From positions 1 to 64,000 of the forward strand of contig PBKA01000016.1 of NCBI GenBank assembly GCA_002721305.1: 64,000 bases of DNA, in the 5' to 3' direction. Position 1 is the stretch's first letter. Every line of letters starts with the position of its first letter. Below are positions 61,596 to 64,000 of this stretch, in pieces. Source of the DNA: Acidimicrobiaceae bacterium. GTDB taxonomy: Bacteria > Actinomycetota > Acidimicrobiia > Acidimicrobiales > Poriferisodalaceae. Below the pieces are notes generated by a model, which did not search any database, was not told the origin of the DNA, and saw only the letters and a list, made by a program, of their open reading frames with translations. The position numbers were made by a program, and so were the translations under genes.

Positions 61596-62684
61596 ATGAA
61601 CCGCCCTATGCGCGAGGAACAACGGCCTCCTGATGAGGCGGTCGTGGAGTTGGCCCCCAACGTACGGCGGCTGCAATTACCGATGTCCATGCCCGGATTG
61701 GGTCACGTCAATTGTTACATCCTCGACGATGACCGCGGAGCGGCACTCGTCGATCCTGGGTTGCCCGGGCCAACAAATTGGAAAGCCCTGATGGCAGGTT
61801 TAGCCCACGCCGAAGTGCCCCCGGAACGAGTGCATTCAATAGTGGTCACTCATAGCCATCCAGATCACTTTGGAGCAGCCGGTCACTTTCACGACAAATA
61901 CGGCTGCGAAATCATTACGCACAGAAATTTCAGGATGTGGTGGAACCTGGAGGAAGAGGACGATGAGCCGCTCCAAAACGTCTCGGCATCGGACGAAAAC
62001 GCCCAGCTTCGGGACGACCCCCTCTTCGCTGGTCTGGACACGGGACCTCGAGGCCCAACTCCTTGGGGTGGCGAACGGTACAAGATGCCGTGGCATAGAA
62101 GACTTGGCTACGCAATGATGCGGAGGGGTTGGGGTGGGGCCTGGTTTTCTACTCCTAAACCAACAAAAAGAGTTGAGGATGCCGACCGCATACACCTTGC
62201 GAGACGAGATTTTGTCGCCGTCCACACACCGGGGCACACGACGGATCATTTATGTCTTTATGACCCGGAAGCTGGCTTGATGTTGTGCGGAGATCACGTC
62301 CTCCCAACCATCACTCCCCACATCTCAGGTTTCGGCCCAGCTGCTGACCCCCTCAAAGACTTCTTTTTCAGTCTGGACCGAGTGGCAGATTTTGATGGAA
62401 TCAAACTAGGCCTGCCTGCGCACGGTCAGCCGTTTACAAATCTCGCCCAACGTGTTGATGACATCAAGCGCCATCATGAAGAGCGTCTGAATTTGCTTCG
62501 CGAAGCATCAGACCGCCTAGGTCGTGCATCGGTCCAGAAGTACATGAAAGAGCTTTTCCAGCAGCGGTCTTGGGGCCCCATGGCTGAATCGGAAACGTTT
62601 GCCCATCTCGAACATCTCCGTCAAACCGGCGAAACCGAAGCCACTCGGACACCGGACGGGATTCTGGAATATTCCTTTCATTGA
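61596..62684 (+). CDS. MBL-fold metallohydrolase
   Basis: VVTHSHPDHFGAAGHFHD; VHTPGHTTDHLCLYDPEAGLMLCGDHVLP. Confidence 0.92.
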   Translation: MNRPMREEQRPPDEAVVELAPNVRRLQLPMSMPGLGHVNCYILDDDRGAALVDPGLPGPTNWKALMAGLAHAEVPPERVHSIVVTHSHPDHFGAAGHFHDKYGCEIITHRNFRMWWNLEEEDDEPLQNVSASDENAQLRDDPLFAGLDTGPRGPTPWGGERYKMPWHRRLGYAMMRRGWGGAWFSTPKPTKRVEDADRIHLARRDFVAVHTPGHTTDHLCLYDPEAGLMLCGDHVLPTITPHISGFGPAADPLKDFFFSLDRVADFDGIKLGLPAHGQPFTNLAQRVDDIKRHHEERLNLLREASDRLGRASVQKYMKELFQQRSWGPMAESETFAHLEHLRQTGETEATRTPDGILEYSFH

Positions 62685-62761
62685 TTCTTTTGTGTTTTCG
62701 GTTTGGGCACAGGTGGAAGCTCTCTTGGCGCAAGCTACCCTCATCGTTCGGGTCATTTTGT

Positions 62762-62789
62762 TTGACTGATTTAATTCATTTGATCTAGT
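62762..62789 (+). promoter_or_regulatory. Candidate promoter of the whiB leader (TTGACT-N16-TCTAGT, AT-rich upstream)
   Basis: Direct motif reading only; preceded by TCATTTTGT. Confidence 0.3.
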
Positions 62790-62840
62790 TCAAGCATTTG
62801 TGGTGGCCTTTAGTTAGTTCATCCTCTCAAGTAAGAGTTT

Positions 62841-63038
62841 GTGAAGACAATGCGTAACTTATTTTCAACAAATTGGTCGGGTTCCGTGACCACGACCTCG
62901 CGCGCTCTTTGTCACAGCGCGACCGCCAATTCACGCATGTCAACAAAATTCAATAGTGGGTTCGCCACAATGCCACCGGCAGTTTATTTCACCGGCATTA
63001 AGCATCAGCCGTGGCGGCCTTCGGAGGAGCAGATGTAG
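62841..63038 (+). CDS. Candidate leader uORF (65 codons) upstream of whiB; in-frame ATG also at 62850
   Basis: GTG-start ORF ending TAG 63036-63038, 30 nt before the terminator hairpin; contains the candidate antiterminator segment 63013-63021. Confidence 0.45.
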   Translation: MKTMRNLFSTNWSGSVTTTSRALCHSATANSRMSTKFNSGFATMPPAVYFTGIKHQPWRPSEEQM

Positions 63039-63077
63039 CTGCAAATAGCACATCAAAGATTCCACTGTAAGGCCGCC
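63013..63077 (+). promoter_or_regulatory. Candidate antiterminator: 63013-63021 GGCGGCCTT pairs with 63069-63077 AAGGCCGCC
   Basis: Perfect 9-bp complementarity; the downstream partner is the 5' arm of the terminator hairpin, so the two pairings exclude each other. Confidence 0.6.
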
Positions 63078-63095
63078 GGTTCACCGGCGGCCTTA
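63068..63095 (+). terminator. Terminator-like hairpin in the whiB leader
   Basis: TAAGGCCGCCGG-TTCA-CCGGCGGCCTTA, perfect 12-bp stem, followed by ATGCTTTTACC. Confidence 0.8.
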
Positions 63096-63154
63096 ATGCT
63101 TTTACCCCTTAAACCAATCCGCAATCAGTCAAAAGAAAAATCAAGGAGAAACCA

Positions 63155-63484
63155 ATGCTCGAGCTTCTCATCGAAACCGAAGACGAATGGAACGTCGCTG
63201 GTCGATGCAACGACAACAACGGCACTTTGACTCATTTGTTCTTTTCGGACAACATCTCGCACCAGGCACGAGCGAAAGCGATGTGTGCCAAGTGTCCAGT
63301 CAGTGGCGACTGTCTTGAGGCCGCTCTCACCCGCAAGGAGCTATGGGGCATTTGGGGTGGCCACCTGATCGAGAATGGGCGCATTGTGGTCGGGAAGAGG
63401 GGTCGAGGCAGACCGCCCAAAGAGCCCCGCCCCGTGGTCGAAGTTAACGAAGTTCCTATACCGCCGGAGCTCATTTCGGCTTAA
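63155..63484 (+). CDS. WhiB family regulator, WhiB7/WblC-like (Fe-S cysteines, GIWGG turn, RGRP AT-hook)
   Basis: GRCNDNN...MCAKCPVSGDCLEAALTRKELWGIWGGHLIENGRIVVGKRGRGRPPKEPRP. Confidence 0.9.
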   Translation: MLELLIETEDEWNVAGRCNDNNGTLTHLFFSDNISHQARAKAMCAKCPVSGDCLEAALTRKELWGIWGGHLIENGRIVVGKRGRGRPPKEPRPVVEVNEVPIPPELISA

Positions 63485-63599: not shown

Positions 63600-63632
63600 G
63601 GAGCCCCCGGGATTAACTACCCCGGGGGCTCC
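63600..63632 (+). terminator. Terminator-like hairpin downstream of whiB
   Basis: GGAGCCCCCGGG-ATTAACTAC-CCCGGGGGCTCC, perfect 12-bp stem, no obvious T tract. Confidence 0.65.
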
Positions 63633-63690
63633 GACGCGTTCAAGGGGTACCGTGGCTACTGGCTACCCGCAGATCGATATTGAGAGCACC

Positions 63691-64000
63691 ATGGTCCATT
63701 CCTGGAGACGACTACTGATCGGTTTTCTCTTCCTCTATGTCATTGGCGCGGCGGTTTTCTTGCTCGCGGGGAGGGGAGGGCCCACTGTCAGCTCGAATCC
63801 AATTAATTCTCCTTCAGGTGCCTCATCACATGAAGGTGTCTATCGCCTAGAGTTCACGACCTTCGATGGAGACGTGACTTCGTTCTCTTCTTTTGCGGGG
63901 CTTCCGCTTATCGTCAACTTCTTTGCTTCTTGGTGCACTCCTTGCGTTAAAGAGATGCCCGACTTCGAAAAGCTCCACACAAGCCACGGTGAGCAATTCA
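63691..64000 (+). CDS. TlpA-like thiol-disulfide oxidoreductase, truncated at window end
   Basis: Own translation: MVHSWRRLLIGFLFLYVIGAAVFLLAGRGG...LPLIVNFFASWCTPCVKEMPDFEKLH (WCTPC). Confidence 0.85.
   Translation, partial: MVHSWRRLLIGFLFLYVIGAAVFLLAGRGGPTVSSNPINSPSGASSHEGVYRLEFTTFDGDVTSFSSFAGLPLIVNFFASWCTPCVKEMPDFEKLHTSHGEQF

Follow-up and report, generated by a model that had tools for sequence, protein, structure and literature searches.

The closest described counterparts of the leader analysed here are the attenuators that precede whiB7 in mycobacteria and wblC in Streptomyces (Lee 2022, Mol Microbiol 117:179, as cited in PMC10727445, PMC11550727 and PMC13393426; see also Dinan 2014, PMC4128351). 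According to PMC11550727, PMC10727445 and PMC13393426, translation of an upstream open reading frame (uORF) favours a terminator, whereas ribosome stalling or failed translation favours an antiterminator; WhiB7 in turn boosts transcription from its own promoter. The WblC box GAAAWY is located 3 nt ahead of the -35 element (PMC7157823), and this arrangement of box and -35 has been described for both WblC and WhiB7 promoters (PMC7157823; PMC10727445). No paper on a whiB7 leader in Acidimicrobiia was found in a literature search, though the comparative set of Lee 2022 may include members of this class.

A leader of comparable layout is located close to the end of the window, i.e. the whole 64,000-nt stretch that was analysed (contig PBKA01000016.1), in a marine Acidimicrobiales bacterium. 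It very probably works by uORF-mediated transcription attenuation together with WhiB7 autoregulation. Orthology of the gene, a coding uORF, the spacing between its stop codon and the terminator, covarying alternative structures and the promoter box together indicate that the mechanism is the one documented for whiB7/wblC. For this locus, we infer from homology and anatomy that termination takes place and depends on the ribosome; the same applies to the drugs or amino-acid limitation that would induce it and to the regulon. The features concerned are as follows.

62771-62785, + strand: predicted WhiB7-responsive promoter, with an A/T-only box TTAATT, a 3-nt spacer and the -35 element TTGATC.
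62850-63038, + strand: uORF of 62 codons, MRNLFSTNW...YFTGIKHQPWRPSEEQM, with the stop codon TAG at 63036-63038, recognized by comparative coding constraint.
63012-63078, + strand: predicted antiterminator hairpin, its 5' half within the uORF, the stop codon enclosed and its 3' half formed by the 5' arm of the terminator.
63013-63021, + strand: antiterminator strand GGCGGCCTT, complementary to AAGGCCGCC at 63069-63077.
63068-63095, + strand: predicted intrinsic terminator hairpin of 12 bp, TAAGGCCGCCGG-TTCA-CCGGCGGCCTTA, then AATGCTTTTACC, supported by folding, conservation and covariation.
63143-63148, + strand: Shine-Dalgarno-like AAGGAG of whiB7, read from the sequence.
63155-63484, + strand: whiB7/wblC orthologue of 109 aa, with a four-Cys WhiB domain, GIWGG and the AT-hook KRGRGRPPK.

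The 109-aa protein matches Pfam PF02467 (Whib) with 56 bits and contains the four cysteines and the G[VI]WGG signature (GRC...CAKCPVSGDC...GIWGG). Its top match among solved structures is WhiB7 of M. tuberculosis (60 bits), the next WhiB scoring 32.6 bits, and its C-terminal AT-hook RGRP, within KRGRGRPPK, aligns with KRPRGRPRK of the same M. tuberculosis protein, confirming the AT-hook-like C-terminus reported in an earlier note on this DNA. In a tree built with the genome's five WhiB paralogues plus WhiB7 proteins of further actinobacteria, the protein is placed inside the WhiB7 clade with support of 100/99, separate from the five paralogues. The WhiB7-like identity claimed previously thus agrees with both the structure match and the tree, and the gene is assigned, on sequence criteria, as a WhiB7/WblC orthologue. 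Neither an AT-hook nor a comparable leader was found at the other five whiB genes of the genome.

An MBL-fold hydrolase gene (61596-62684) is situated upstream of whiB7, and the two remain neighbours throughout the family and at two loci further removed (L054 and L060). Downstream, a gene for a ResA/TlpA-like thioredoxin-fold protein (63652-64000) is syntenic in close relatives. Between whiB7 and the latter, a GC-rich hairpin, GGAGCCCCCGGG...CCCGGGGGCTCC, occupies 63600-63632; it is devoid of a T tail and probably terminates the whiB7 unit.

Upstream of the uORF, a mostly A/T-rich hexamer followed by 3 nt and a TTGAC/T -35 element could be recognized in 54/55 orthologous leaders, being weakest in L039. 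The pattern can be written as GAAAAT/ATAAAT/TTTATT, 3 nt, TTGACN; in distant members the box is often GAAAAT, the published consensus, while TTTATT or TTAATT is used in this genus. The conserved WhiB7 box beside the -35 element points to a predicted autoregulated promoter. The -10 element (about 62803-62808) is poorly defined and no site was found by a scan for consensus sigma-70 promoters, as may be the case for a weak promoter that depends on an activator. The copy at whiB7 is the only match of the promoter pattern without mismatches in the genome, and among the seven weaker matches that were inspected for a wider WhiB7 regulon, no convincing target gene was found. The leader had earlier been given as 470 nt long. 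This figure is correct as the intergenic distance, but the predicted transcript leader measures about 340 nt.

The uORF itself had been described as 65 codons (62841-63038) starting at GTG. The reading frame is present; conservation among relatives does not extend to the GTG at 62841, which could be ruled out as the start, whereas the ATG at 62850 is conserved, giving 62 codons. This length is fixed, with zero indels, in 19 species of the family, and across them dN/dS is 0.39 in frame; in the other two frames, which contain stops in 9/19 and 18/19 species, it amounts to 1.16 and 0.98. Conservation of the uORF in relatives, which the earlier note had named as a check on its reading, is therefore evident in both length and in-frame constraint. 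By comparative genomics, the uORF appears to be under purifying selection in its own frame only, as expected of a translated sequence. Across the order its length varies, and the stop codon is located 19-33 nt ahead of the terminator in 55/57 leaders examined. The peptide is Ser/Thr-rich, with a tail, YFTGIKHQ..RPSE, that is nearly invariant in the genus and its neighbours, and a per-codon table revealed no run of a single amino acid. The Shine-Dalgarno sequence of the uORF is weak or unclear in this genus.

Codons 46-53 of the uORF (YFTGIKHQ, 62985-63008) are nearly invariant in the 19 species although they are outside the antiterminator, and codon choice is kept as well, with TAT TTC and AAG in all 19 species. 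The segment sits just upstream of the antiterminator strand. Assuming that the ribosome covers about 15 nt downstream of its P site, codon 49 would be roughly the last halt position that leaves the antiterminator strand free. The conservation of YFTGIKHQ may be coincidental, or the segment may pace or stall the ribosome. A more specific idea, which is rather unlikely, is that the segment is dedicated to stalling or sensing, through the nascent peptide or through particular codons, and is positioned at the furthest point where a ribosome can halt without covering the antiterminator; if true, the Acidimicrobiales switch would answer a specific signal and not any block of translation.

Between the uORF and whiB7, the hairpin at 63068-63095 forms a perfect 12-bp stem (-24.1 kcal/mol) followed by a T-rich stretch, at exactly the coordinates given earlier, and it is also flagged by a terminator scan. 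A counterpart exists in nearly every orthologous leader. The U-tract is interrupted (AATGCTTTTACC) and the interruption pattern is conserved. In an alignment of 24 sequences, 95.8% of the cells of this stem were paired and 3 pairs displayed double-sided changes, a picture similar to that obtained for the antiterminator below. Such a conserved, covarying hairpin with a T-rich tail is a predicted intrinsic terminator.

Could the alternative hairpins gate the access of ribosomes to the whiB7 Shine-Dalgarno sequence, leaving transcription unaffected? Alternative structures beside a coding uORF serve translational attenuation in other resistance genes, which favours such a reading. Nevertheless, when the two conformers were forced, the Shine-Dalgarno sequence had the same unpaired probability (0.56 and 0.55), the distance from hairpin to whiB7 differs among species (59-295 nt), and most leaders have a T-rich stretch after the hairpin. 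Because access to the site is alike in the two conformers and the distance is so variable, translational control is considered very improbable.

The hairpin might also be a plain terminator of an upstream unit, either the MBL-fold gene or a stand-alone gene for a small protein, with whiB7 transcribed from its own promoter further downstream. The MBL-fold gene is indeed found upstream in 34 loci and the uORF is constrained at the protein level, but the uORF, antiterminator and hairpin are kept in about 20 loci in which no MBL gene occurs in the fetched upstream stretch. This persistence of the leader makes ownership of the hairpin by the MBL-fold gene unlikely, and as that gene's terminator it was rejected, synteny being lost while the leader is kept. 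In addition, the conserved antiterminator would be left unexplained, and within the mere 59 nt between hairpin and whiB7 a promoter-like site was not found. There is thus little to recommend a terminator of any upstream unit.

Transcription attenuation, by comparison, predicts a second structure, and before the 3' arm of the terminator is made, 63012-63078 folds into a hairpin of about 27 bp with an MFE of -34.8 kcal/mol (z = -4.5). The antiterminator beats the terminator (-34.8 against -24.1 kcal/mol) until that arm emerges, and the two are mutually exclusive. This folding bears out the earlier proposal of mutually exclusive structures with the antiterminator strand lying inside the uORF. The 9-bp complementarity between GGCGGCCTT at 63013-63021 and 63069-63077 was likewise found where it had been placed, and represents the outer part of the longer hairpin. 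In dinucleotide-preserving shuffles, the chance of a 9-bp Watson-Crick match near the hairpin was p = 0.001 when 100 nt were considered and 0.002 when 230 nt were. By itself the complementarity is modest evidence, and the weight rests on comparative data.

In 34 divergent leaders, the mean dinucleotide-controlled folding z-score of the antiterminator was -4.3, as opposed to -0.8 for adjacent upstream control segments. The 24-sequence alignment contained 9 antiterminator pairs with double-sided changes, a score above 500/500 shuffles, and 86.6% of the cells were paired, falling to 35-43% once one side was slid. When uORF tails and terminator arms of clustered representatives from the 34 divergent leaders were swapped between species, duplexes averaged -17.9 kcal/mol (sd 0.37), compared with -20.4 kcal/mol for cognate duplexes, and 0/20,000 permutations were as good. 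Kinship among sequences inflates shuffle tests; hence sliding, swapping and z-scores are reported side by side. The inner stems around the uORF stop codon covary. Among the outer pairs (columns 11-19 with 68-76), a compensatory change from G-C to A-U occurs in one sequence (L025) and from U-A to C-G in two. The 9-bp core varies little within the genus, and covariation is most marked in leaders further away and in the inner stems; simple tail/arm duplexes are weak in a few distant loci (L042, L051 and L058). Since an RNA can adopt just one of the two conformers at a time, the RNAalifold consensus taken alone recovers the terminator but, of the antiterminator, no more than the innermost stem; pairs were therefore also counted for each structure separately. 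Conservation of the complementarity in relatives, the other check named beforehand, is consequently found in the form of an antiterminator that covaries in orthologous leaders. Least of all can the complementarity be credited as a by-product, with no regulatory role, of GC-rich GGCCGCC-type terminators and a conserved coding sequence (RPSE): GGCCGCCGG-type hairpins do recur in the leaders and the core is nearly invariant in the genus, but cognate pairing exceeds swapped pairing in the divergent leaders, the z-scores are controlled for dinucleotides, the inner stems covary, and L025 retains Watson-Crick pairing (A-U) in the antiterminator while the matching terminator pair drops to G-U.

Under the attenuation model, transcription would start about 340 nt upstream of whiB7, from the promoter with the WhiB7 box. 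During healthy translation, the ribosome would translate the 62-codon uORF behind RNA polymerase and rest at the stop codon (63036-63038), masking the antiterminator in its 5' half and loop, whereby the terminator at 63068-63095 would form and transcription would end before whiB7. With a ribosome stalled further upstream (no later than about codon 49), or with no initiation, 63012-63078 would fold as the antiterminator and sequester the 5' arm of the terminator, and RNA polymerase would read on into whiB7. WhiB7 may then activate its own promoter.

The leader is present in 55/57 loci examined in the order Acidimicrobiales, and it is retained where the upstream gene differs. The relatives that bear names are metagenome-assembled genomes of marine Acidimicrobiales, MED-G01 among them. 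One genome (G042) carries tandem whiB7-like genes (L038 and L039) about 0.7 kb apart, and the scan found a uORF/terminator leader only at the second. Elsewhere in the phylum, whiB7 uORFs comprise 39-113 codons, with 45-76 in most loci whose product is 65-79% identical to M. tuberculosis WhiB7. The other actinobacteria have the same antiterminator layout, and in most of 11 folded examples the antiterminator again encloses the stop codon of the uORF. The earlier note had proposed a WhiB7-type gene under a uORF-coupled terminator/antiterminator, as a diverged attenuator with a much longer uORF. The core of this proposal is well supported, but 62 codons is a usual size, and the phylum-wide comparison rules out the long uORF as a novelty.

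By its anatomy, the whiB7 attenuator is intact in a marine lineage of small genomes (mostly about 1.7-2.8 Mb in close relatives) and conserved order-wide; its working principle has been retained although almost all of its bases have been replaced. This points to an old actinobacterial translation-stress switch and not to a trait of pathogens or antibiotic producers. An Rfam search gave no match up to E = 1, and the dozens of covarying leaders could feed a structural model of the switch.

Compared with known systems, the leader resembles the whiB7/wblC attenuator in several respects: the gene is orthologous, the uORF is of similar length, an intrinsic terminator follows the uORF closely, the antiterminator combines uORF sequence with the 5' arm of the terminator, the leader measures about 340-350 nt, and an AT-rich WhiB7 box stands 3 nt before the -35 element. 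The sequences of the uORF peptide, antiterminator and terminator are unrelated to those of mycobacteria and Streptomyces, and the genus uses TTTATT/TTAATT where the published box is GAAAWY. In the attenuators of ABCF resistance genes (vmlR and are5sc; PMC9226507, PMC12421871), uORF translation also sets the choice between terminator and antiterminator upon exposure to ribosome inhibitors. However, these are non-homologous, have short leader peptides (3-9 codons in are5sc and tiaA; PMC9226507, PMC12421871) and govern a resistance factor, whereas the present leader governs a WhiB regulator. The M. tuberculosis ilvB1 amino-acid attenuator is similar in that a ribosome at the uORF stop codon masks the antiterminator strand and leads to termination, but its regulatory codons match the end product of the pathway (PMC13236596), unlike the uORF described here with its lack of a single-amino-acid run. 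Judged from sequence comparison, the leader appears to be a well-supported Acidimicrobiales example of the ordinary, already known whiB7 attenuator.
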